Assembly (NCBI RefSeq): GCF_001468395.1
Contig: NZ_LNSG01000002.1
Span: 62,001 to 126,000, forward strand
Reading direction: 5' to 3'
DNA length: 64,000 bases
Source of the DNA: Sphingopyxis sp. H073
Lineage (GTDB): Bacteria > Pseudomonadota > Alphaproteobacteria > Sphingomonadales > Sphingomonadaceae
Below are positions 4,643 through 29,547 of the stretch, piece after piece. The position numbers and the translations under genes were made by a program. Position 1 is the stretch's first letter, and every line of letters begins with the position of its first letter. Under the pieces are notes generated by a model. That model had not been told where the DNA came from. It searched no databases and saw only the letters and a program-made list of their open reading frames with translations.

Positions 4643-5584
4643 TCATGGCGCCTCGCGGATGCGGAAATCCCAGACCGGAATGCCGAACGCCCGCGCCTTG
4701 TCGACGAGATTGTCCTGGATGCCGGTGCCCGAGAAGACGATGAGCCCGGCGGGCATGGCGTCGATCATGCGCTCGTTGCGCTTGAAGGGCGCCGCTTTCT
4801 TGTCGCGGTTCCAGTCGGGACGGAATGCGACCTGCGGCACTTTCCGCGCGTCGGCCCAGCAGGCAGCGGCGCGTTCGGCGCCGGTCGGAGTCGCGCCGTG
4901 GAGCAGGACCATGTCGGCGTGACGCGCATGAACCTTGTCGAGCGCCGACCAGATATGCCGGTGATCGTTGCACGCGGGTCCGCCGCTGAACGCGATGCGC
5001 GTGCCCTCGGGGATCAACGCCTTGGCCTTTTCGCGGAGGCGGCGGTCCATGAAGTCGCGGCTGTCGATCATCGCGGCGGTCATCGCCTGGTGGCGGATGC
5101 GCGACCCGGTGCGCGGGACCCAGGCCTTGCGGGCGTGGATACGAAACTGTTCGGCGGCGCATTCGCGGAAAAATTCCATCGCGTCGCGCCGCTCGATCAG
5201 GGTGATGCCTTCGGCGATCGCGCGCTCGAGTTCGACCGAGCGGATTTCGCTGCCATCCTGCTCGCGCTGGAGATCGCGCTGCGCCGCCTCGTTGCGGTCG
5301 AGCTCGCGTTCGATCCGCGTTCCGGCGCCATGGAAGAGATTGACGACGCCCCAGAGCAGATCCTCGAGATCGGGTTCGATCCTGGTGTCGACGAGACAGC
5401 CCGCGAGCGCATCGAAGATGTCGGCGACGGCGCCGCCGGCGAGCCGATCATCGGGAAGCGGGCGGCCATCGGGTTCGTCCTCGAAGGGGCGAAAGCCGTA
5501 GAGCTGCATTTCCTGGAGGAGATATGCGCTGGCGCCGGGCTCGGCGGGCTCGCCGCGTTCGGAAATGTCGGACAGGTCGGTCAT
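4643..5584 (-). CDS. DUF2493 / YspA-type SLOG domain protein
   Basis: A 313-residue protein. Residues 195-310 are a DUF2493 domain of the SLOG (cpYpsA-like) superfamily: GTRIAFSGG at 194-202, then HGATPTGAE at 229-237, where a Rossmann-like fold would bind a nucleotide-derived ligand. Residues 88-135 look like a charged coiled coil and the first 90 are acidic. SLOG proteins sense or process nucleotide derivatives and are common in mobile elements and defence islands. The ATG at 5584 is chosen because the upstream frame is low-complexity. It probably shares a transcript with the MNT-HEPN gene 63 bp downstream. Confidence 0.82.
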   Translation of the reverse strand: MTDLSDISERGEPAEPGASAYLLQEMQLYGFRPFEDEPDGRPLPDDRLAGGAVADIFDALAGCLVDTRIEPDLEDLLWGVVNLFHGAGTRIERELDRNEAAQRDLQREQDGSEIRSVELERAIAEGITLIERRDAMEFFRECAAEQFRIHARKAWVPRTGSRIRHQAMTAAMIDSRDFMDRRLREKAKALIPEGTRIAFSGGPACNDHRHIWSALDKVHARHADMVLLHGATPTGAERAAACWADARKVPQVAFRPDWNRDKKAAPFKRNERMIDAMPAGLIVFSGTGIQDNLVDKARAFGIPVWDFRIREAP

Positions 5585-17416: not shown

Positions 17417-18043
17417 ATGATCGCACAATCGACGCGGGCGCCGGGCGCGCCCGGGGATGCCGCGCTACGCGGCATGTTTGCCGCGCGAAAGCAGGTCTTC
17501 ATCGACCAGCTCAAATGGGATTTGCCCGTCCTCGACGGCCGTTTCGAACTGGATCAGTTCGACACGCCCGACGCCCGCTATCTGATCCTGCTCGACCCCG
17601 ACGATCTGCGTCATCGCGCTTCGGCGCGGCTCCTGCCGACTACGGCGCCGCATCTTCTCGGCGACATCTATCCGCATCTCTGCGCCGATGGCGCGCCGAC
17701 CAGCAAAGGAGTGTGGGAGATCAGCCGCTTCTGCCTCGACCCGGCGCAAACGCCCGTCGAACGCCGCGACGCACGCAACCAGCTCGTGACCGCGCTTGCC
17801 GACTATGCGCTGAACAACGGGATAAGCGATTATGTCGGGATCGCCGAGGCGGGCTGGTACCATAGTATCAGCAAATTCGGCTGGGCGTGCCGCACGCTGG
17901 GGCCCGTCCACCGAGATGACGCATGCAGGATCGTCGCGCTCAACATTTCGATCGACGAAGACACGCTCGCGGGCCTGAAACGAACGGGCACCTATGCGCC
18001 GCTCATGCTCAAATTTGAGGAAGGCGGGGAGCCAGCGCTATGA
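17417..18043 (+). CDS. luxI: Acyl-homoserine-lactone synthase (LuxI family)
   Basis: A 208-residue autoinducer synthase. The family's invariant residues are present: R24 and F28 (ARKQVF), W34, the acidic pair in ELDQFD (D46, D49), R71, and E101/R104 in WEISRFCLD. It would make an N-acyl-homoserine lactone from SAM and an acyl-ACP or acyl-CoA; chain length cannot be read from sequence. Its stop overlaps the next gene's start (ATGA at 18040), so translation is coupled to the dioxygenase. A candidate lux box lies upstream, implying positive feedback. Confidence 0.93.
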   Translation: MIAQSTRAPGAPGDAALRGMFAARKQVFIDQLKWDLPVLDGRFELDQFDTPDARYLILLDPDDLRHRASARLLPTTAPHLLGDIYPHLCADGAPTSKGVWEISRFCLDPAQTPVERRDARNQLVTALADYALNNGISDYVGIAEAGWYHSISKFGWACRTLGPVHRDDACRIVALNISIDEDTLAGLKRTGTYAPLMLKFEEGGEPAL

Positions 18044-18918
18044 AGAAGGAACTCACCGAAGCCGATGTCAGCGCGATGCTGGTCGAGGAATTGCGCCGCA
18101 CCGGCTACTGCATCGTCCGCAACGAGGCGATCGCCCGCGTCCACGCTCTGGCGAAGGATCTCGACCCGATCTTCGACGCGACGCCCTTCTGCGATGGCAA
18201 TTTCTATGGTCGCCGCACGAAGCGCTTCGGCAGCCTGCTCAAGCGATCGCAGCATATGGCCGCGCTGGTGATGAACCCGATCATCCTGCCCGCGGTCGAG
18301 ACGATTCTCGGATCGGGATGCGACCGGATACAGCTCAACCTCACCCAGGCGATCGAAATCCATCCGGGCGAAGTGCGGCAGTTTCCGCACCGCGATCAGG
18401 ATATGTGGCGCGGCGCCGATGGTACCCAGGAATATCTGGTCAATATCCTCTGGCCGCTCACGCCGTTCAAGAAGGAGAATGGCGCGACGCGCATCTTCCC
18501 GAACAGTCATGGAGCGGCAGGAATGGCAAAGACCGATCTAGGCCAGCCGGTTTTCGCCGAATGCGAACCGGGATCGGCGATCTGTTTCCTCGGATCGACC
18601 GCGCATGGCGCAGGCACGAACCTCAGCAAGGAGGTCAGGCGCGGCGTGCTGGTCAGCTACAGCCTTGGCTGGCTCAAGCCCTATGAGAATCTGTGGCTCG
18701 CCTATCCGCCCGAGGTGGCGCGACATTTTCCGCCCGAGCTGGCGGCGCTCGCGGGCTATGCGCAGCATCGCCCCAATCTCGGCAATTATGAAGGCCAATG
18801 CCCTTCGGTCTTGCTGACGGACGAAAGGCCCGCGCATCTCGGCGCGATCGACGCGCTGCGCCCCGACCAGGCCGAGGCGGTCTCCGCCTTCGCCGCCGCC
18901 GAAAGGGCAGGCGCATGA
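18040..18918 (+). CDS. Phytanoyl-CoA dioxygenase (PhyH) family protein
   Basis: A 292-residue Fe(II)/2-oxoglutarate dioxygenase. The iron-binding facial triad is visible: FPHRDQDMW (H117, D119) and STAHGAGTN (H189), followed by the 2-oxoglutarate Arg in KEVRRGVLV. NGATRIFPNSH matches the PhyH core. Substrate unknown. Its 4-bp overlaps with luxI before and gntR after suggest it modifies or degrades a signal or its acyl precursor. I recall PhyH genes next to luxI in Novosphingobium, so the pairing is not unique. Confidence 0.88.
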   Translation: MKKELTEADVSAMLVEELRRTGYCIVRNEAIARVHALAKDLDPIFDATPFCDGNFYGRRTKRFGSLLKRSQHMAALVMNPIILPAVETILGSGCDRIQLNLTQAIEIHPGEVRQFPHRDQDMWRGADGTQEYLVNILWPLTPFKKENGATRIFPNSHGAAGMAKTDLGQPVFAECEPGSAICFLGSTAHGAGTNLSKEVRRGVLVSYSLGWLKPYENLWLAYPPEVARHFPPELAALAGYAQHRPNLGNYEGQCPSVLLTDERPAHLGAIDALRPDQAEAVSAFAAAERAGA

Positions 18919-19526
18919 GTCCCGCGCATGTGTTCGAGCCGACCTATGAAGCGATCAAGCGCCGATTGATGACGGGCGAATGGGCGACCGGCGCCCGGAT
19001 CGAAGCCGCGCGCCTCGCCGATGACCTTGGGGTCAGCATGACCCCGGTTCGCGACAGTCTCTATCGCCTCAACGGCGAGCGCATGGTCGACTTCACGCCA
19101 GGCGAAGGCTTCCATGTCCACCGCCTCACCGAGACCGAGTTTCGCGACCTGCTCGAGCTGCATCTGATCCTGCAGCTCGCCGCGCTCGCAACAGCGCCAA
19201 ATCGGCTGGCTACGCCGGTGAGCGCCGATCAGCCTTATCCCGAACGCATCGCGGACCTGTTCCTCGCGGTCGCGGATCGATCATCCAATTCCGAGATCGT
19301 CGCGAGCATCGCCGCAATCGGTGACCGGCTCCAGTTGTCGCGGCATTTCGACGCCGCGATCCTTGGCGATGTCGAGGCGGAATATAAATTGCTCGAGGCC
19401 GCCATTGTCGATGCCGCGCTGCAGACCGAGATGCGGAGCCTCCTGCTTGGCTATCATGAGCGGCGCGCGCGCGAGGCCACTTCCTATGCACGCACGCTCG
19501 CTGCGCACCCTGGCCGCCAGTCCTGA
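18915..19526 (+). CDS. GntR-family transcriptional regulator
   Basis: A 203-residue protein. The N-terminal winged helix is GntR-type (YEAIKRRLMTGEWATGARIE, then LADDLGVSMTPVRDSLYRLN). The C-terminal part is all-helical and shorter than a full FCD domain, with few of its metal-binding His residues. Its ATG overlaps the dioxygenase stop (ATGA), so luxI-phyH-gntR is one coupled operon. It may feed back on this operon; ligand unknown. Confidence 0.85.
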   Translation: MSPAHVFEPTYEAIKRRLMTGEWATGARIEAARLADDLGVSMTPVRDSLYRLNGERMVDFTPGEGFHVHRLTETEFRDLLELHLILQLAALATAPNRLATPVSADQPYPERIADLFLAVADRSSNSEIVASIAAIGDRLQLSRHFDAAILGDVEAEYKLLEAAIVDAALQTEMRSLLLGYHERRAREATSYARTLAAHPGRQS

Positions 19527-19849
19527 GGACGTACAATCGCCTGATCGACGCTTTTGCTTGTCACAGCCGCCCGCAATTGACATGATTCGGGTGCGCTGGA
19601 GCATTGCTGGCAGCTTTCGCGCGGACTATTTCGCCAGGCATTATATGCGCCAGTCCTTGACCGGACCGGCGGCCGAACCGGACCCTGGATCGCACAAGCG
19701 ACCGAACGGCGGCACAGCACTGGGAGACGGGCATCCGGCTACGGCGGGATGGCTCTGCTCGTGCCCTCGGAACAATTGCTGTGTCTTCCTGTACCTGCTG
19801 CGACGACGCTCCGCTGCGTCACCCCTTTTCGGTGTCGTCGGCCTGTCAT
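19527..19849. other. Intergenic stretch between QS block and sigma-factor gene
   Basis: 323 bp, markedly less GC-rich than the flanks. No gene is supported. The frame of the sigma factor is open through part of it, with a possible GTG at 19781. No palindrome or clear promoter was found. Confidence 0.4.
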
Positions 19850-20389
19850 GTGCATCCCGACGATCGCCCGGCACCGGTCGAACATCGGCCCGTCACCGGA
19901 CAGGATCTGGAGACAATGTATCGCGCGCACCGCTCGTCGCTCTTTCATTTCCTGCGCCGCAAGGCGGGCCCCGAGGAAGCACCCGACCTGGTTCAAGAAG
20001 TCTTCGCGCGGGCAGCGGGAAGCGAGCAACGGCATCACCTCGTCAACCCGGGCGGCTTTCTTCGCCGTATTGCTCAGAATCTGCTGATCGACCGGGCGCG
20101 ACGCCGCAAGTCTGCGCCGATCGCTCTATTTTCGCTGCGCGAAGAGAGCGATGCCGTGACCCCGGCCACGCAGGAATGGAACCTCGAAGCGGCGGACCTT
20201 CTGGAGCTTTACGAGAAGGCCGTTGACGCAATGCCGCTCAAGACGCGCCGCGTCTTTCTGATGCACCGGGTGGACGAACTTTCCTATCGCGAGATACATG
20301 AACAGCTCGGCATCAGCATTGCGACGGTGGAATATCATATGATGAAGGCGCTCGGTCAGATCGCGAAGGTGGTGGACAGCGGGAAATGA
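19850..20389 (+). CDS. FecI-like ECF RNA polymerase sigma factor
   Basis: About 180 residues from the GTG at 19850. Region 2 reads MYRAHRSSLFHFLRRKAG, then EEAPDLVQEVFARAAG; region 4 is PLKTRRVFLMHRVDELSYRE followed by EQLGISIATVEYHMMKAL. This is the FecI-type pattern. The start is uncertain: GTG 19781, GTG 19850 and ATG 19916 are all possible, the last too close to region 2. It overlaps fecR by 4 bp (ATGA). With FecR and the STN receptor it forms a cell-surface signalling set for the lasso locus. Confidence 0.88.
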   Translation: MHPDDRPAPVEHRPVTGQDLETMYRAHRSSLFHFLRRKAGPEEAPDLVQEVFARAAGSEQRHHLVNPGGFLRRIAQNLLIDRARRRKSAPIALFSLREESDAVTPATQEWNLEAADLLELYEKAVDAMPLKTRRVFLMHRVDELSYREIHEQLGISIATVEYHMMKALGQIAKVVDSGK

Positions 20390-21375
20390 CCAAGGCCGTC
20401 GACGACGATTATCCGGCCGACGAGGTCGCGCGCGCGTGGCTCGTCAAGATGCGCGGCGAGGATGCGGAGGCGCTGCGCGACGAGTTCGACGCGTGGTTGC
20501 AGGCCTCAACCGAGCATCGCGAAGCCTATCGGCGCGCCGAAAAGCGGATGGCTGCGCTTGCGATCCTCAAGACTTCACAGCGCCACGGAACGACGCATGC
20601 CGAGGCGCGCCGTGGTCGAATGCGCGGCTGGTTCACATGGGGAGCGGCCGCCACCGCGCTCGCGCTCCTGATCATCGCGATCGGGGCTGCGGGCGCCCCC
20701 TTTCCCGGCCAGCCAGGCGGCGGCGCGACGGCTTTTGCCGCCGAACCGCTCGAGACGCAGCGCGGCGAGATCCGCACCTTCCGGCTCGTCGATGGTTCGC
20801 GCGCGACGCTCGACACCGACAGCCGGCTCGACGTGGCCTTTTCGCATGGCGAACGAAGCGTTCGTCTCGTGAGGGGCCGGGTCCGACTGTCGGTCGCGCC
20901 GGGCGATGTCCCACTCCGGATCGAGGCCGGGCACGGAGGGGCGACGGCAAATGATGCAGAAATCGATCTGAGTCTCGCCGCATCGGGGAGAGTGGTCGCA
21001 TCGCTGCGCCGCGGCGCAGCAGAGGTGCGCGCCGATGCAGACGTCGAGCAGACCATGCCCCTCAAGGCAGGAAGCGCCCTCGCCTATGGGCCCGGTAGCC
21101 GGTTGGAGCCTGTCGCGGCGCCGGCGGCCGTCATTCAGCCAGACTGGACCGAAGGGTGGGCAGAGTATCGATCGATCAAACTCGGCGCGCTCGTCGCCGA
21201 AGCCAATCGCTACGCCGCGGTGAGGATCGTGATCGACGACACCGACATAGCCGCACGCGAAGTGTCGGGTCGCTTCCATATCAGCCAGACCGAGGCATTT
21301 GCCGAACGGATCGCCATATTGTTCGGCCTCGCCGTCGAACGGAGGTCTGACGCCATCCACCTCCGCCGTCGATAA
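20386..21375 (+). CDS. FecR-family anti-sigma factor
   Basis: A 329-residue single-pass membrane protein. The N-terminal cytosolic domain (DUF4880, about 8-50: WLVKMRGEDAEALRDEFDAW) binds the sigma factor. The membrane helix is near 85-105 (TALALLIIAIGAAG). The periplasmic FecR domain follows (LVDGSRATLDTDSRLDV, RLVRGRVRLSV). The C-terminal DUF4974-like part (about 255-325) contacts the STN domain of the TonB receptor in Fec-type systems. Translationally coupled to the sigma gene and 99 bp upstream of the receptor. Confidence 0.93.
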   Translation: MTKAVDDDYPADEVARAWLVKMRGEDAEALRDEFDAWLQASTEHREAYRRAEKRMAALAILKTSQRHGTTHAEARRGRMRGWFTWGAAATALALLIIAIGAAGAPFPGQPGGGATAFAAEPLETQRGEIRTFRLVDGSRATLDTDSRLDVAFSHGERSVRLVRGRVRLSVAPGDVPLRIEAGHGGATANDAEIDLSLAASGRVVASLRRGAAEVRADADVEQTMPLKAGSALAYGPGSRLEPVAAPAAVIQPDWTEGWAEYRSIKLGALVAEANRYAAVRIVIDDTDIAAREVSGRFHISQTEAFAERIAILFGLAVERRSDAIHLRRR

Positions 21376-21403: not shown

Positions 21404-21474
21404 CTATCTTCCCGTCAACGCACCCCCACTGGCCGTCTGCCTGATGCACGGCCGAGAATATTGGGGGAGTGAAA

Positions 21475-24006
21475 ATGTCGATTAAATCCCGTTCGCTGGC
21501 CGCGCTGCTCGTCGGCGCTGCAGCCTTGCTTTCGCCCGAAGGCGCGCAGGCCATGCAGGCGCCGCGCCAATCCTATGATATTCCGGCGCAGGATCTGGGC
21601 GATGCACTGCGCCGTGCCGCCGCGCTCGCCGATATCGAGCTCTATGTCAGCGCGCAGGACATCGAAGGGAAGAGGGCGCCCGCCGTGCGGGGTCAGCTCA
21701 CGCCGCGCGAAGCCATCGAGGCGCTTCTCGCCGGCAGCGGCCTCACGGCGCGTTTCGAGAGCCGGTCGGTCATTATCCTGAGCGACGCCGCCGTTCCGGC
21801 CATCCCCGCGGGCGAGCCCGAAGTCATCATCGTCACCGGGTCGCGCATCGCGGGCGCTCCTGCCGCCGCGCCGGTTATCGACATCAGTGCCGAGGATATT
21901 CGCAACGCGGGTCATGCCGACCTCGGCGAGGTGGCGCGAAGCCTGCCCCAGAATTTCGGCGGCGGGCAGAATCCCGGGATCGGGTCGGGTCAGGGCGTCG
22001 CGAACGAGAATGGAAACGTCAATGGGGCCTCGACCTTCAACCTCAGGGGGATAGGGCCGAGTGCAACGCTGACGCTGCTCAATGGCAATCGCTTTGCCTA
22101 CAGCGGCACGCAAAGCGCCATCGACGTGAGTGCGATTCCGGCAGCGGCGGTCGAACGGATCGAGATCGTCACCGACGGCGCGTCGGCGATCTACGGCGCC
22201 GACGCGGTGGCGGGCGTGGTCAATATCCTGCTGCGCAAGGATTATGAAGGAATCACGACGAGTGCCCGGCTCGGCGGATCGACCGACGGGGGCAATTTTC
22301 AGCAGCAATATGGGCTGCTCGGGGGCGCAAAATGGTCCGGTGGCGGCTTCCTTGCGGCCTATGACTATTTCGAGAATAGCGCGATCCTTGCGCGCAATCG
22401 CAGCTATGCAGCGAGCAGCAACCCCGCCTCGACACTCTACCCGGAGCTCAAGCGGCATAGTTTTCTGCTGAGCGCTCATCAGCAGGTGGTTGCCGGCGTA
22501 CAGTTGAAGACCGACGCGATCTACAAGCGCGGCGATATGACTTCGGTGCGCGGTCTTATCGTGGACCGTCCGATCACGACGCGCGGTACGATTGTCACCA
22601 ATGAGTTCGAAACCTTCGGAATCGCCCCGACGCTCGAGGCCGAGATCGGTGGCAGTTGGACCGCGCGCATCTCCGCCTTCTACGGCAGCGATAACACCTA
22701 TGGCGAGACGCAGAATTTCACCAACGGGGTGGCGACGCGCCCCATTCGCATATTCAACAATCGCAGTGTCAGCGTCGAAGCCGGTGTGGAGGGCGCGATC
22801 TTCGCGCTACCCGCCGGCGATGTGCGGCTCGCCGCCGGCGGCGGCTGGCGTCGCAACCGGCTCGTCGCGGAGGTCAACGGCCGTGGTTTCGCCGGACGCC
22901 GCGACAATCTCTATGCCTATGGGGAGTTCTTCCTGCCGTTGGCAAGTCCTGCTCAAGACCTCTCCTTTGCCCACCGCGCGTCGATCACTGCGGCGCTTCG
23001 CTTCGAAGATTACTCCGATGCCGGGAGCATCGTGGTTCCCAAGCTGGGCTTCGTTTATGCGCCGGCCGAAGAACTAAGCATTGGTTTATCATGGGGCCGG
23101 TCGTTCAAGATGCCGACGCTCAACCAGCAATTCAGCGGCTACACGCCGGTGCTGCTGCCCGTCACTGGCTACGGTACAATGTTCCCAGCGGGTTCGACCT
23201 ACATCTACATCGGCGGCCGGAATCCCGACGTCGGTCCCGAGCGGTCCGAGAATATCACCTTAAGCGCGACATTTCGGCCGTCGCCGCGACTCCAGATCGT
23301 CACCAGCCTGTTCCGGATCGATTATCGCGACAGGGTTGCGCCACCCTTCGGCTCACCGCTCGGAACGCTGACCAATCCGCTCTACGCTGATTTTATTACC
23401 TTCAACCCGTCGGCCGCGTCGCAGGCCGAGGCAATCGCCGGCGCCGCCGATCCGCTCGGCAATGGAACGAGCGGGCCCTATAATCCCGCCACGGTGATTG
23501 CGATCATCGACGGTCGCGACCGGAATATCGCCGCGCAGCGCTATGAAGGCGCCGATCTGGCGATCCGCTACCGGGCTCCGATTGGCAAGCAGACGCTGAC
23601 GCTTACCGCCAACGCCACCTGGCTCGACAGCCGGCAGCGCTTGCTGCCCGGTCTTCCGAACATCGATCTGGCGGGCACGATATTCAATTCGCCGCACTTT
23701 CGCGCCCGTGGCGGCGCGACCTTCGGCGGCGAGCGCTTCACACTGGCCGCCTTCGCCAATTTCACGGGCGGCGTAACCGATCGGCGGCGCGCCGTTCCGG
23801 TGAGTGTCTCGCCCGTCACGACGCTCGATCTTTCCGCACGCGCGAAGCTGGGACGCCTCGCCGAGATATCGGTCAATGCGCTCAATATCCTCAATGCCAA
23901 GCCGGATATGACGGCAGTCGCATCCGCTAGCGACACGCCTTTCGATTCAACCAACTATTCGGCTGTCGGGCGTTTCCTCGGCGTCACGATCAGCCGCGAC
24001 TGGTGA
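21475..24006 (+). CDS. TonB-dependent receptor with STN signalling domain (lasso locus)
   Basis: An 843-residue outer-membrane receptor. A signal peptide ends near GAQAM; an STN domain follows (about 30-105: YDIPAQDLGDALRRAAALAD, then GSGLTARFESRSVIIL). Next come the plug (VERIEIVTDGASAIYGADAV, GVVNILLRK) and a 22-strand barrel ending in FLGVTISRDW with a C-terminal aromatic. STN receptors transduce ligand binding to a FecR/sigma pair, both encoded just upstream. In isopeptidase-type lasso loci such receptors are thought to import the peptide. ATG 21475 follows GGGGGAG; a GTG at 21469 is the alternative. Confidence 0.93.
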   Translation: MSIKSRSLAALLVGAAALLSPEGAQAMQAPRQSYDIPAQDLGDALRRAAALADIELYVSAQDIEGKRAPAVRGQLTPREAIEALLAGSGLTARFESRSVIILSDAAVPAIPAGEPEVIIVTGSRIAGAPAAAPVIDISAEDIRNAGHADLGEVARSLPQNFGGGQNPGIGSGQGVANENGNVNGASTFNLRGIGPSATLTLLNGNRFAYSGTQSAIDVSAIPAAAVERIEIVTDGASAIYGADAVAGVVNILLRKDYEGITTSARLGGSTDGGNFQQQYGLLGGAKWSGGGFLAAYDYFENSAILARNRSYAASSNPASTLYPELKRHSFLLSAHQQVVAGVQLKTDAIYKRGDMTSVRGLIVDRPITTRGTIVTNEFETFGIAPTLEAEIGGSWTARISAFYGSDNTYGETQNFTNGVATRPIRIFNNRSVSVEAGVEGAIFALPAGDVRLAAGGGWRRNRLVAEVNGRGFAGRRDNLYAYGEFFLPLASPAQDLSFAHRASITAALRFEDYSDAGSIVVPKLGFVYAPAEELSIGLSWGRSFKMPTLNQQFSGYTPVLLPVTGYGTMFPAGSTYIYIGGRNPDVGPERSENITLSATFRPSPRLQIVTSLFRIDYRDRVAPPFGSPLGTLTNPLYADFITFNPSAASQAEAIAGAADPLGNGTSGPYNPATVIAIIDGRDRNIAAQRYEGADLAIRYRAPIGKQTLTLTANATWLDSRQRLLPGLPNIDLAGTIFNSPHFRARGGATFGGERFTLAAFANFTGGVTDRRRAVPVSVSPVTTLDLSARAKLGRLAEISVNALNILNAKPDMTAVASASDTPFDSTNYSAVGRFLGVTISRDW

Positions 24007-24017
24007 GGAGCGCCGAT

Positions 24018-26198
24018 ATGAAAATCGCACTCCGATCCGGCCTCCCGGCCGTGGCGCTCCTTGCCGCCGCGGCGCTCTCCCCTGCCGCGCAGGCAGGGGA
24101 GAGCAAGGGCAGGCCCTGGACGCTCGAGGATATCCTCACAGTTCCCGAAGTGAATGAAATCGCGCTGTCGGACAATGGCCGCCTCGCGATTTACGCTGCC
24201 GAGATTGCCGACCTCGATGCCGGAAAGCCGAGATCGCATATTCGCATCGTGGACGTCGAAACTGGTCGGACGAAGGAATTGCTGACGGTCGATACCATCA
24301 AGTCGCTGCGATCCGTCCCCGGGACACAAGACTGGAGCGCTTTGGTAGACCTTGGCGAAGGCCAGCAACTCTACCGGATCGACACCGAGGGCAAGCTGCT
24401 GCCACTGATCGTGAACCCCAACCCCGTGCCGGTGGGAAAGGCCGACATGTCTTTCCCGCTCGGCGGCGGCATACGCCCCTCGCATATCGGTATCCTCGAC
24501 TATGACTGGTCACCCGATGGCAAATGGCTTTGGTATTCACAGCTCAGGGCCAAGACCGACGGACCTCGCGTCCGGTTCGATCGGGAAGTTACTGCGCTAC
24601 TTGGCCGGCGACGCTCGACGATCGACGTCGAGGTCGACTATTTCCTGCGGGGACCTGAAGGAAACACGACGAAGATCATGACGCGGCCGTCGACCGATCG
24701 CGTCGCCACCCGCGGTGGGGGTCGCATTCTGTGGCGAGGCGACGAGATCCAGTTTCGGATTGAGACGAGCGACGGCACTTTGGGTGGTGCCTTCGAGTTC
24801 CTGGCGTGGAACCGCGTGAACAAGACGGTGCGCACGCTCGCGAAGCAACGCGACTTGCTCAGCATGTCGATTCTCGGCGGCCCGCGCGGTGGGCAGCTTT
24901 CGACAAGCGGTGTGGGCAGAGATCGGGAGTTGCTCGAGACTTCGGCGGAAGGCCGTTCGCACAGCTATGGTCGTGTCGCATTCGACATCGGCGATTCGCG
25001 TTCTGTCGGCTGGAAAAGCAGCCGCGACGGTAGACGGGTGGTGATCGGGACCAGGGGGCTCGGCGATGCGCGCTATGGTCTCGCGCTCATCGACAAAAGA
25101 GGGGTGCGTGAACTCCGCGGGGACGCGAGCCTGACGCGATGCGGCTTCGACGGCATGCTCCGGGCTGCCATATGCGTCGAGGAAGGCATGTCCCGGCCGC
25201 CGCGCCTCGTTCGTGTGAGCCTTTACACAGATAAGATCGCGGACCTTGGTCCCATCTCACCAAGACATGAGGAGATCGAACCTCTTCAGGCCATCGCACG
25301 CACCTTTGTCAATCGCGATGGCTATTGGTCGAGCGGCTATGTCTTGCTCCCGCGCGGCCACCGCGCCGGCGACCGACACCCAGCGGTGGTCGTGACCCAC
25401 GGCACCGATGCAGACGACCGCTTTGCCGAGCCCGCAAACCAGTGGAACTATCCAGTCCAGCTGCTTGCTGAACGCGGTTATGTGGTTCTTCTCCTGAACG
25501 ACCCCTCACCCGGCCAGTCGAAGGATTTGATGGACGCCATGCACGCCTGGCTACGCGGTAAAGGTCCCCCCGATCCTGAAACGGTTCAACAAAAACTCTG
25601 GCTGACCGGCGTGCACAGCTTCGAGGATGCCGTGACGGAACTTGCCGCTGAGGGGCTGATCGATCCGGCCCGCGTCGGAATAGCCGGCTACAGTCGCGGC
25701 TCCCAAATGGTCAACGTCACCGTCACGAACTCCAACATGTTTCGAGCGGCGTCGAGCGGGGACGGCGGCTTTCTGGAGCCTGCCGGCTATGCAACCGGGC
25801 GATCGAGCTATGATGCGGTTTATGGGGGTGCGCCGCTCGGGGAAAACATCGAACGCTGGCGCCGCTTTGCACCGTCGCTGAATGCCGGCAAGGTCTGTGC
25901 GGCAGTGCTGCAGCAAGTGGCTTCGGCATCGCCGTCACAGATCGAACTGTTCGAGGCCTTGCGTGCGGCGGGCGTCGCAACCCAGATCAGCTATTATCCC
26001 GGAGCAACGGCAGCGTCGGACGAGACGCATGTCTTCTATCTGACGTCCAACCGACTGCGCGCGATGCGCGAGAATATCGCCTGGTTCGACTATTGGCTGC
26101 TCGGCCAACGCGATGCCGACGCGCCTTTCCCCGATCAGATGGCGAACTGGGATCGATTGAAGCAGAACCGCCAAGCTCGATGCCCCGCCGAGCCATGA
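24018..26198 (+). CDS. Lasso peptide isopeptidase (S9 prolyl-oligopeptidase fold)
   Basis: A 726-residue secreted enzyme: signal peptide at 1-27 (ends PAAQAGE), a beta-propeller (about 35-420), and an alpha/beta-hydrolase domain with nucleophile GYSRG (Ser559) and a His in DETHVF (His671). Enzymes of this type cut the isopeptide bond of lasso peptides; the sphingopyxin I isopeptidase was characterised from S. alaskensis, and the peptide-coding gene at 28824-28958 matches that product. GAGGAG is seven bases before ATG 24018. It ends 7 bp from the convergent precursor gene. Substrate pairing is inference from location. Confidence 0.92.
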   Translation: MKIALRSGLPAVALLAAAALSPAAQAGESKGRPWTLEDILTVPEVNEIALSDNGRLAIYAAEIADLDAGKPRSHIRIVDVETGRTKELLTVDTIKSLRSVPGTQDWSALVDLGEGQQLYRIDTEGKLLPLIVNPNPVPVGKADMSFPLGGGIRPSHIGILDYDWSPDGKWLWYSQLRAKTDGPRVRFDREVTALLGRRRSTIDVEVDYFLRGPEGNTTKIMTRPSTDRVATRGGGRILWRGDEIQFRIETSDGTLGGAFEFLAWNRVNKTVRTLAKQRDLLSMSILGGPRGGQLSTSGVGRDRELLETSAEGRSHSYGRVAFDIGDSRSVGWKSSRDGRRVVIGTRGLGDARYGLALIDKRGVRELRGDASLTRCGFDGMLRAAICVEEGMSRPPRLVRVSLYTDKIADLGPISPRHEEIEPLQAIARTFVNRDGYWSSGYVLLPRGHRAGDRHPAVVVTHGTDADDRFAEPANQWNYPVQLLAERGYVVLLLNDPSPGQSKDLMDAMHAWLRGKGPPDPETVQQKLWLTGVHSFEDAVTELAAEGLIDPARVGIAGYSRGSQMVNVTVTNSNMFRAASSGDGGFLEPAGYATGRSSYDAVYGGAPLGENIERWRRFAPSLNAGKVCAAVLQQVASASPSQIELFEALRAAGVATQISYYPGATAASDETHVFYLTSNRLRAMRENIAWFDYWLLGQRDADAPFPDQMANWDRLKQNRQARCPAEP

Positions 26199-26205
26199 CC
26201 CATGT

Positions 26206-26349
26206 TCAATCGGTCTCGGCAATTCCTGCAAAGAATATGTAGCGCTCCCCGGTGTCTTCCTCGACCGCACCGAGCGGGTCAATGCCGCGTGTCTGATCTC
26301 TGATCGCGCCAAGTTCCACAAGCTCCAACTCGCAGTCTCTGCCTTCCAT
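26206..26349 (-). CDS. Lasso peptide precursor A1 (sphingopyxin-like, second core)
   Basis: A 47-residue precursor. The leader (residues 1-21) ends LVELGAIRDQTR, with Thr at -2 as lasso proteases require. The 26-residue core (26209-26286) begins GIDPLGAVE: Gly1 and Glu9 give a nine-residue macrolactam ring, and the tail contains TGERYIFFAG. It aligns without gaps with the core at 28827-28904, 15 of 26 residues identical, the ring acid being Glu instead of Asp. ATG 26349 has GGAGGA seven bases upstream. An in-frame ATG at 26388 with AAGGAG would lengthen the leader. Fourth gene of the minus-strand A2-B-C-A1 order. Confidence 0.9.
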   Translation of the reverse strand: MEGRDCELELVELGAIRDQTRGIDPLGAVEEDTGERYIFFAGIAETD

Positions 26350-26408
26350 TTCTGTTCCTCCAATTGGCAATTCGGAATGAGGGCGCATCACAGTCTCCTT
26401 CGGCATAT

Positions 26409-28121
26409 TCAACTTCCCGCCCAATATCGGGCCCAATTTTCAGCGGCGACGAAGGTCAGAATCCTGTCGATGCGCTCGGCACCGCGCCATGTCGGATCTT
26501 CGGGCACGTCGAGTAGTCCGAGATCCAGCACGCCCGACGCCGCAAGTATCCCGCCGCGCAGGCGATCGTGCAGCGCAGCACGGTGAGTCCGATAGATTGA
26601 CAGGTGGAAGTCCCCGGGTCCGCCCTTTTGCCTCCGCGCGGTAATCATCTCGGGCAAATATCCTTCGAATGCCTTTCGGGCCACGGCTCTGTTCTCACCG
26701 CCGGCGATCCACTCCCATGTCGGTATAGCGAGACAGGCCTCGACGATCGGCTGCGACATCAGCGGGGCAATATGGGGAGGCATCGTTGCGCGCGGATAGA
26801 GTTCGACGCCCTTCTGCGCTCGCATCAGATAGGCCGCGTGGACAGTTTTCCCCGGAAGAATATCGTCGGGCGCATCGAGCCAGGGGTGGGAGGCGCCCTC
26901 CGCCCTGATCGTTCGCCCAATCTCTTTTCCCAGACCCGCAAGATTGATGAGAGGGCGATGACGCCCACGATTGCGTCGATAGCGCTGCCAGCCGTGCTTC
27001 AGCACGGTCTTGGCGTCCGCTCCGGTCAGCAGGGTAAGATCATACAGGGTGGAAGCCAGGGATGGTCGCGGACCTTCGGCCAGAAGCCGATCGATGAAGG
27101 GCACGGCGCTTCGTACGCCACAAAGGATGCCGTCGCCGCCATTGCCGGAAAAAAAGGCATCAACGGGTAGTTCGCTGAGCAAGCGACGATGGATTACCTC
27201 ATTGGTCTGCTTGTAGAGCGGAGCAACAGGCCAAGGATGATGTGGCGCTGCCGAGACGGTGACGTCGATATCTTGCAGCTCGCGATACTCCTCGATCAGC
27301 AGGGTGCCGATCGACTCTGCAAGCGCCCGGGCGTACCGGCGCTCGTCTCCATCGAAATCGGGGCTCACCAGATTCAGACAGGTCAGACTTTTGGCCATAG
27401 TCGCTGCCGACGCCGCAACGATGGAGGAGTCGAGCCCGCCCGACACGCCGACCATGATTGAGGGGAAGCAGGTAGCCCATGCTCCGACGCAGTCCGCTAT
27501 CGTGCGCCTCAATTCGTCAGTCACTTCGTCGGCGCCAGCGCCGGAACGGGCGACATGATCCCAAGGCGACCAATATTGCTCGGTCCGCAAATCATCCTGG
27601 TCGATGACCAGGCATTCGCCGGCGATCAGTTCTTCAACGTCCGATACACATGTCCGTCGCCCTCGAAGATCGCCACCCGCCAGGATGCGAGCGATCTCAT
27701 CGAGATTTGCCGAACCAGGGGCGGGGTTCGCGAGGTCAGTAATCGATCCTGCAAGCGTCACGCGGCCGCGATCGCGGCGGACATAGCAAGGAAGAAGTCC
27801 CGATGGATCGCGAAATATCCGTACCGCACCCGCTGGGTCGGCATGGACCATGACGTACCCGCCCCAGTATTGTCTCAGCAGCCGTTGCGCATCATTGGCC
27901 GCAAGACCATCGCCCTCGCCGACTTCAAAGGCCTCGACCCGGCGGCTGGGTGGGCCTCTCGTAAAGAGATGACCGATAATGACGGTCCGTGGAGGTATCG
28001 CGATCGCCGGTTCGGCGGTCCATATCCTCACGCCAGAGATTTCGAAAGTCGGCGGGCCCTGTTGCTCCGGAGCCGGACGGTTGGTCGACATCTCGACCTC
28101 AATTCGAAACCCGCCGGCCAT
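26409..28121 (-). CDS. Lasso C protein: asparagine-synthetase-like lactam synthetase
   Basis: A 570-residue protein. The N-terminal half is a glutamine-amidotransferase-like domain (about 30-190) lacking the nucleophilic Cys2, as usual for lasso C proteins. The C-terminal half is the ATP-pyrophosphatase domain with VGVSGGLDSSIVAAS (PP-loop at 227-233). It adenylates the ring Asp/Glu side chain so that Gly1 can close the macrolactam. Its ATG (28121) overlaps the B stop (ATGA), so B and C are translated together. With two precursors nearby it must accept both Asp9 and Glu9 if both are used. Confidence 0.93.
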   Translation of the reverse strand: MAGGFRIEVEMSTNRPAPEQQGPPTFEISGVRIWTAEPAIAIPPRTVIIGHLFTRGPPSRRVEAFEVGEGDGLAANDAQRLLRQYWGGYVMVHADPAGAVRIFRDPSGLLPCYVRRDRGRVTLAGSITDLANPAPGSANLDEIARILAGGDLRGRRTCVSDVEELIAGECLVIDQDDLRTEQYWSPWDHVARSGAGADEVTDELRRTIADCVGAWATCFPSIMVGVSGGLDSSIVAASAATMAKSLTCLNLVSPDFDGDERRYARALAESIGTLLIEEYRELQDIDVTVSAAPHHPWPVAPLYKQTNEVIHRRLLSELPVDAFFSGNGGDGILCGVRSAVPFIDRLLAEGPRPSLASTLYDLTLLTGADAKTVLKHGWQRYRRNRGRHRPLINLAGLGKEIGRTIRAEGASHPWLDAPDDILPGKTVHAAYLMRAQKGVELYPRATMPPHIAPLMSQPIVEACLAIPTWEWIAGGENRAVARKAFEGYLPEMITARRQKGGPGDFHLSIYRTHRAALHDRLRGGILAASGVLDLGLLDVPEDPTWRGAERIDRILTFVAAENWARYWAGS

Positions 28122-28762
28122 CAAACGGCAAAGATCGGTCGATAGTGGAGAACAACGTCCAAGGAGTCGGTCAGCACGGTATCACCGACCTGAACCCAGC
28201 TATGGGCGGCGAAGGGCATGGTGACGCCAAACACCAGCGAGGCTGCCACGCCGCGGCGCGCAAGCATCCGTGTCATGGCAATGCCGCGCACCAGGCATCG
28301 GTCATCTGATGACATATAGCGCTTGGCGCGCACGAATGCGGCGGTAATATCGCGGCAATCGTCCGCACCGGATGGCGCCAGTCGATCAGACCTGCGTCCT
28401 AGGCCGGTTACAATATCGCTAAGAGAATTGTTTTGAAGATCGCGGCGGGCTCTCCGCTGCTCCCAGATACAGGATATTGTCGCCGCCATCGAAGCCTTAG
28501 CCGACGGCTCATCAACGAGACTGCGCGCGGCCACCGGCGGGGGTATAGCAAGCCTAGGATTTCGGTCTGTATCGTCAGCGAGAAGGCCGAGACTACGTAA
28601 ATGGTCTTCATCTGCAGAAGTCCCATGACCGGCAAGCACGAGGTCAAACCGTTCGACGGACTGATCGGTGAGAAGAAAATAGCGGTCGGCGAAGAGATCG
28701 AACAGGACGACGGCGCCATTGAAATGGCAGTGATGCAGGCCCGATCGCAGCATGGCGGACAT
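28121..28762 (-). CDS. Lasso B protein: RRE fused to leader peptidase
   Basis: A 213-residue fusion of the two B parts. Residues 5-65 are a PqqD-like RiPP recognition element (HHCHFNGAVVLFDLFADRYF) that binds the leader. Residues 135-213 are a transglutaminase-like Cys protease with triad C156 (DDRCLVRG), H187 (AAHSWVQV) and D199 (VLTDSLD). It removes the leader after the -2 Thr. Start ATG 28762 is chosen because family members begin about ten residues before the His-Cys; a GTG at 28813 would extend it. It lies 61 bp downstream of precursor A2. Confidence 0.92.
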   Translation of the reverse strand: MSAMLRSGLHHCHFNGAVVLFDLFADRYFLLTDQSVERFDLVLAGHGTSADEDHLRSLGLLADDTDRNPRLAIPPPVAARSLVDEPSAKASMAATISCIWEQRRARRDLQNNSLSDIVTGLGRRSDRLAPSGADDCRDITAAFVRAKRYMSSDDRCLVRGIAMTRMLARRGVAASLVFGVTMPFAAHSWVQVGDTVLTDSLDVVLHYRPIFAV

Positions 28763-28823
28763 TTCGATAATTGCGCGGGGCAATGCGAATGGCGTGCCGC
28801 ATGCGAGCGGCACGCCACCGCTT

Positions 28824-28958
28824 TCAGTCGTCGGCCGTGATGCCGCCGGCGAACAGATAATGTTCGCCCTGATCTTCGTCGACCGGCCCGAGCGGCTCGA
28901 TGCCGCGGGTTTCGACGCTGATGGCGCCGAGGTCGATCAGTTCGTTGAAGTCCTTCAT
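28824..28958 (-). CDS. Lasso peptide precursor A2 (sphingopyxin I)
   Basis: A 44-residue precursor. The leader MKDFNELIDLGAISVETR (18 residues) has Thr at -2. The core (28827-28904) begins GIEPLGPVD with Gly1-Asp9 ring closure and continues EDQGEHYLFAGG then ITADD. The first 21 core residues equal sphingopyxin I as I recall it from Sphingopyxis alaskensis RB2256; the mature form there lacks the last residues. GGAAGG lies about 9-14 bases before the ATG. First gene of the lasso operon and the gene most easily missed because of its size. Confidence 0.95.
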   Translation of the reverse strand: MKDFNELIDLGAISVETRGIEPLGPVDEDQGEHYLFAGGITADD

Positions 28959-29472: not shown

Positions 29473-29547
29473 TGGAGCGGGCGAAGGGATTCGAACCCTC
29501 GACCCCAACCTTGGCAAGGTTGTGCTCTACCCCTGAGCTACGCCCGC
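29473..29547 (-). tRNA. tRNA-Gly (anticodon GCC)
   Basis: A 75-base cloverleaf including encoded CCA. The 7-bp acceptor stem is GCGGGCG/CGCCCGC, D-arm GCTC-AGGGGTA-GAGC, anticodon stem CAACC/GGTTG with loop TTGCCAA (anticodon GCC), and T-arm with GTTCGAAT loop. Its 3' end faces the lasso/accessory region to the left, the usual orientation for an element integrated at a tRNA 3' end. Confidence 0.97.

Follow-up and report, generated by a model that had tools for sequence, protein, structure and literature searches.

A1, a 47-residue reading frame at the distal end of the sphingopyxin I operon of Sphingopyxis sp. H073, is a real gene with orthologues elsewhere; judged from its sequence, it encodes a second lasso precursor with a predicted Gly1-Glu9 ring and is very probably functional. 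Taken as a whole, the data are best explained if A1 is a functional precursor whose product would be made by the B and C enzymes shared with the sphingopyxin I precursor A2, which we regard as probable. The gene lies in the window, the whole stretch of 64,000 nucleotides that was analysed, from a genome of 4.31 Mb in 27 contigs. The minus strand carries A2, B, C and A1 in this order, and the plus strand the sigma factor, FecR, TonB receptor and isopeptidase genes:

19781..20389, plus strand: ECF sigma factor (PF04542, PF08281)
20386..21375, plus strand: FecR-like anti-sigma factor (PF04773)
21469..24006, plus strand: TonB-dependent receptor (PF00593, PF07715, PF07660)
24018..26198, plus strand: lasso peptide isopeptidase, convergent (full-length match to SpI-IsoP, 5jrk)
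26206..26349, minus strand: A1, second (distal) lasso precursor, 47 residues (sequence, ORF list, BLASTP, HMM, orthologue)
26208-26206, minus strand: A1 stop codon
26209-26286, minus strand: A1 core, 26 residues, GIDPLGAVEEDTGERYIFFAGIAETD (ORF translation)
26287-26349, minus strand: A1 leader, 21 residues, MEGRDCELELVELGAIRDQTR (ORF translation)
26349-26347, minus strand: A1 ATG
26361-26357, minus strand: A1 Shine-Dalgarno GGAGG, 7 nt 5' of the ATG (GGAGG likewise precedes the orthologues)
26350..26408, minus strand: C-A1 gap, 59 bp (no terminator-like site, ordinary RNA fold)
26409..28124, minus strand: C, asparagine-synthetase-like macrolactam synthetase (PF00733 over cut-off; the ORF starts with TTG, first ATG at 28121)
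28121..28813, minus strand: B, RRE-like N-domain and transglutaminase-like cysteine protease (NF033537 and PF13471 over cut-off; alignment, model, Foldseek)
28824..28958, minus strand: A2, sphingopyxin I precursor, 44 residues (PDB 5jqf, 21/21; NF033522, PF24178)

An earlier note on this DNA had placed a 47-residue precursor with a core of its own at 26206-26349, at the distal end of A2-B-C-A1, and had aligned the core without gaps to that of sphingopyxin I. The sequence, the ORF list, the Shine-Dalgarno site and a leave-one-out HMM bear out the gene, the minus-strand gene order bears out its position, and a recount of the gapless alignment gives 15 identical and 11 differing residues out of 26, with Asp9 replaced by Glu9. 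A 76-residue ORF in the list, starting at the TTG at 26436, is the A1 frame extended upstream. The A1 and A2 precursors are identical at 23/39 residues by BLASTP (E=9e-16 for a single comparison). In a PDB sequence search with the A1 core, the sole match was the chain named Sphingopyxin I of 5jqf (E=1.3e-4), all of whose deposited residues (21/21) are found in the A2 core. The predicted cleavage site QTR/G places Thr at position -2, which according to PMC11420955 is Thr in 94% of lasso precursors. The A1 core has Gly1 and Glu9, in agreement with the rule in PMC11006600 that cores start with Gly and have Asp or Glu at position 7, 8 or 9. Glu as the ring acid is known from Glu8 of microcin J25 (PMC11420955). 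The gene adjoins those of B and C, for which PF13471, NF033537 and PF00733 all score over cut-off and the motifs are kept. The layout LG-5-Thr-x-Gly1...acid9 is common to A1 and the other precursors of 47 clusters except that of L066/L098, where the precursor near 5187 (minus strand), located by HMM, has Ile in place of Thr at -2; a penultimate isoleucine is the subject of PMC10368454.

The leave-one-out HMM was built from 17 precursors, with A2 included and A1 excluded, and was run on 1,194 window ORFs and 23,880 shuffled ORFs. A2 ranked first and A1 second among the window ORFs (A1 50.6 bits, E=6.2e-15); the next ORF scored 6.3 bits (E=0.44), and no shuffled ORF exceeded 9.7 bits (E=0.74). 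A chance ORF was therefore rejected, because the score of A1 stands far above all shuffled ORFs. The curated families are stricter. A1 scores 24.4 bits against a cut-off of 33 for the benenodin family NF033522 (E=2e-5), 14.2 against 19 for NF033521, and 15.1 against the gathering cut-off of 27 for the subterisin family PF24178, while A2 passes both NF033522 (34.5 bits) and PF24178 (37.8 bits). Annotation relying on NF033522 or PF24178 may thus overlook A1.

A1 would be transcribed by readthrough from A2-B-C. A terminator-like site was sought in the C-A1 gap (26350-26408) and none was seen, and an RNA fold scan of 26330-26430 gave nothing unusual (z = +1.2). Two terminator-like sites lie inside C on the minus strand; with 4 sites counted in the region where 3.0 would be expected, the number is at chance level. 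The N-domain of B would then bind the A1 leader through the stretch ELxxLGAIxxxTR, which both leaders have in common and which is likely the recognition site. The protease domain of B would cleave A1 after Thr-Arg, and C would close the 9-residue ring between Gly1 and Glu9 to give a threaded lasso of 26 residues with a predicted monoisotopic mass of 2766.30 Da (2696.22 Da for sphingopyxin I). A role of A1 as a decoy, a precursor whose leader titrates B but whose core never becomes a ring, is extremely unlikely; the distal position of the gene and the common leader motif would suit a decoy, but the core retains Gly1, an acid at position 9 and the last Asp, for which a decoy has no need.

Cys173, His204 and Asp216 of B are invariant in 22/22 aligned sequences and likely form its catalytic triad, as read from the alignment. 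In the structural model of B (mean pLDDT 83) the N-domain consists of three strands and two helices. Its top Foldseek matches include the leader-bound TbiB1 and TfuB1, with probabilities of 0.98-0.99, E-values of 0.07-0.1 and target TM scores of 0.45-0.48; the E-values are weak throughout, with no match at E<=0.001. The sequence profile match of B to TfuB1 has E=0.009. The SGG.DS motif of C is invariant in 10/10 sequences. A genome-wide search found one PF13471 (B2-type) protein, so a second B2-type enzyme was rejected, and both precursors must depend on this one B, barring a protease of some other family. This upholds the expectation in the earlier note that one B/C pair would process both.

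The cluster fits the isopeptidase type described in PMC9266682, with an isopeptidase, a TonB receptor, a sigma/anti-sigma pair and a GntR regulator beside B and C; the wording there puts the GntR gene before the precursor, whereas here it precedes the sigma factor gene. Absence of an ABC transporter gene is a further criterion of this type; no such gene was found among the 11 window proteins scanned. The isopeptidase gene ends 7 bp from the A1 stop, and its product is 93.7% identical to the protein of genome G001. It scores 167.5 with NF033523, under the cut-off of 400, despite its full-length match to SpI-IsoP.

The isopeptidase probably linearises the A1 lasso as well, since the stretch after the ring, EDTGER, resembles EDQGEH of sphingopyxin I. 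Cleavage is nonetheless uncertain, because SpI-IsoP cleaved only sphingopyxin I among 24 lasso peptides (PMC9266682). A lasso that its cognate isopeptidase leaves uncut might act as a longer-lived signal or as a competitor for the receptor. The exchange of Asp9 for Glu9 shifts the isopeptide bond by one methylene, the tested specificity is narrow (1/24), and Glu9 in this set is limited to second precursors, all of which would favour an uncut product. However, the loop is the dominant recognition element and AtxE2 recognises shape more than sequence, according to the same review, and if the loop corresponds to the post-ring stretch it is nearly kept in A1. On balance an uncut lasso seems unlikely, and linearisation by the convergent isopeptidase is the preferred reading.

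The distribution of A1 was examined in 80 genomes of the genus, including the genome of the window (G000). Matches at E<=1e-3 occur in 16/80 genomes, but a distal gene in only four (G000, G001, G041 and G053). In the other 12, what matches is a precursor lying before B; three of these genomes (G028, G037 and G046) have a C gene cut short and no isopeptidase following, so the junction between the two cannot be judged there. The orthologue in G001, G041 and G053 is 68% identical to the window A1, is of equal length, and keeps the Shine-Dalgarno site, Thr(-2), Gly1, Glu9 and the last Asp. The G041 and G053 genes are nucleotide-identical to that of G001, so the data hold just two distinct A1 sequences. 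The G001 orthologue (locus L025) reads GLEPVGPVEEDTGSRYIPFAGIGEYD, and its core differs from that of the window A1 at 8/26 positions. A search of 72,556 plasmid records gave no match to plasmid-borne A1 relatives.

G001 is presumably S. alaskensis. The core of sphingopyxin II, which we take to be GEALIDQDVGGGRQQFLTGIAQD, has an exact match in G001 that lies beside another B, roughly 75 kb away from the orthologue of A1, and no match in G000. The identity of A1 with sphingopyxin II was therefore rejected, and the orthologue in G001 is neither sphingopyxin I nor II. PMC6092494 lists, among products expressed in 2013, only sphingopyxins I and II for S. alaskensis. The earlier note knew of no description of the A1 core, and none came to light here, neither of the core nor of a second precursor in the sphingopyxin I cluster, in the PDB search or in the examined passages of the sphingopyxin lasso literature, a scope short of the primary papers and of lasso databases.

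The position of A1 was compared across 82 loci (81 and the window), of which 79 carry an isopeptidase; these represent 49 distinct isopeptidase sequences, 48 of them with C. The stops of C and the isopeptidase overlap or lie at most 16 bp apart in 45/48 clusters. A gap of 209-210 bp separates C from the isopeptidase in the three exceptions, namely the window, L025 and the L026 group, each of which carries A1. Because only clusters with A1 have the gap, A1 has been inserted at a single junction and, among the lineages examined, in a single one. To obtain the gaps, tblastn ends were extended as far as the following stop, and large negative values (to -155) may be frame errors. Excluded before counting were L028, L029 and L035 (isopeptidase missing) and L089 (neither B nor C); L067 (contig cut, no B, no precursor) is in the gap count and not in the precursor count. 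A regex census overlooked the precursors of L066 and of L083 and produced one spurious hit, in L102; these cases were settled by HMM. The family- and order-level isopeptidase searches sampled 397 genomes each with at most two candidates scored per genome, and the scan of named genomes yielded 29 loci, so the census is incomplete outside the genus; within it, 80 genomes were searched, and not all sites found entered the comparison, the partial matches in G048 and G049 being left out. L028, L029 and L035 have a precursor, B and a shortened C (313, 206 and 447 codons), with no isopeptidase in the fetched stretch, and the precursor and B proteins of L028 are identical to those of the window. L049, a MAG contig labelled Gammaproteobacteria, carries a cluster whose core is identical to that of several Sphingopyxis clusters and is possibly mis-binned or transferred.

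The closest non-orthologous relatives of A1 are sphingopyxin-I-type precursors (23/39), which fits an origin by duplication. Over 117 bases, A1 and A2 of the window agree in 63% of their nucleotides; the value for L025 is 59%, so that any duplication was not recent. Most likely, a precursor of this type was duplicated into the junction between C and the isopeptidase in one Sphingopyxis lineage and diverged quickly thereafter.

Rates of change were compared between the window and L025 for eight genes, and the counts were rounded before testing. A2 shows 4 silent changes and no replacement change, its protein being unchanged. In A1, 10.5 changes are silent and 20.5 are replacements, giving dS 0.43, dN 0.22 and dN/dS 0.50; the dN values of B, C and the isopeptidase are 0.09, 0.04 and 0.03, respectively. 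Replacement change in A1 (20/109 sites) exceeds that in A2 (0/102, p=9e-7), C (p=1e-7) and B (p=0.005). The dS of A1 is also the highest among the eight genes, and its speed may thus partly reflect a faster-changing or recombined stretch. Such rates raise the question of whether A1 is a decaying duplicate, a former precursor that is now unselected and not productively processed. The rate differences would agree with decay, as would the scores under the curated cut-offs and a dN/dS that is not significantly below 1 (p=0.14); with that p value and only two distinct A1 sequences, purifying selection on A1 is unproven. However, the 31 nucleotide differences between the two genes include no stop or length change, and the Shine-Dalgarno site, the leader motif, Thr(-2), Gly1, Pro4, Gly6, Val8, Glu9, EDTG.RYI and the last Asp are all retained in window and L025, which makes decay unlikely.

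Two precursors are present in 8/47 clusters having both isopeptidase and precursor. Over all loci, 41 distinct cores were found, 37 with Asp9 and 4 with Glu9, one Asp9 core coming only from L029, which lacks the isopeptidase. Glu9 occurs in 5/8 two-precursor clusters and in 0/39 single-precursor clusters (Fisher p=4e-5, kinship ignored), and in this set only in second precursors. The pattern is suggestive only, as it amounts to three of five second-precursor lineages, counted by eye without a tree. The other two-precursor clusters, L039/L061, L040/L053, L065/L090, L081 and L082, have both precursors before B, and in L039 and L065 an Asp9 core is paired with a Glu9 core.

Multi-precursor lasso clusters are well known, so A1 is of an already known kind. 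The caulosegnin precursor genes of Caulobacter segnis lie together before B and C, whereas A1 sits after C. The two systems are alike in having several precursors per enzyme set; PMC13352647 describes three caulosegnin precursors served by one set and rings of 8 and 9 residues, and PMC13381572 states that lasso clusters may encode several precursors with divergent cores. The L039, L040, L065, L081 and L082 clusters also combine two precursors with one B/C, 2/5 of them pairing Asp9 with Glu9, but with both precursors before B and with different cores. TbiB1 of the therbactin system is a discrete B1 protein that binds leaders with Tyr-x-x-Pro. Its RRE has been solved with two leaders, TbiA alpha and TbiA beta (PDB 5v1v and 5v1u), whereas the B of the window is a single chain and its leader has the LGAI stretch. 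Also among the closest systems is the sphingopyxin I cluster of Sphingopyxis alaskensis RB2256 (5jqf and 5jrk). Its A2 core is the same over the 21 deposited residues, and its B, C, TonB receptor and isopeptidase are orthologues of those in the window. Its A1 orthologue, in the genome taken as S. alaskensis (L025), is in the same place.

What A1 adds to this well-studied system, in which lasso and isopeptidase structures are solved, is a predicted product of which no report was found. The only unexpected points are that A1 has changed fast next to a frozen A2 and that Glu9 is confined to second precursors. The operon is a setting for testing one B/C pair and one isopeptidase on an Asp9 and a Glu9 core, and its frozen A2 and fast A1 can serve as a natural comparison when asking what lasso peptides of the isopeptidase type do. 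One could speculate, at long odds, that isopeptidase-type clusters repeatedly evolve a fast-diverging Glu9 partner next to a first core that does not change; the two might then be ligands of one receptor/isopeptidase system, for example one signal recycled quickly and another slowly, and the isopeptidase might tune the Glu9 member or be escaped by it.

Genes for a LuxI-type autoinducer synthase, a PhyH dioxygenase and the GntR regulator (17417-19526, plus strand) directly precede the ECF, FecR, TonB and isopeptidase genes. The one paper found that joins lasso peptides, homoserine lactones and isopeptidases mentions homoserine lactones only generally. A LuxI homologue is present in 16/29 isopeptidase loci (L044-L072), some of which are too short to show one. 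A tRNA-Gly(GCC) gene lies at 29473-29547 (minus strand), about 0.5 kb before A2, and may be a landmark of the cluster's insertion.
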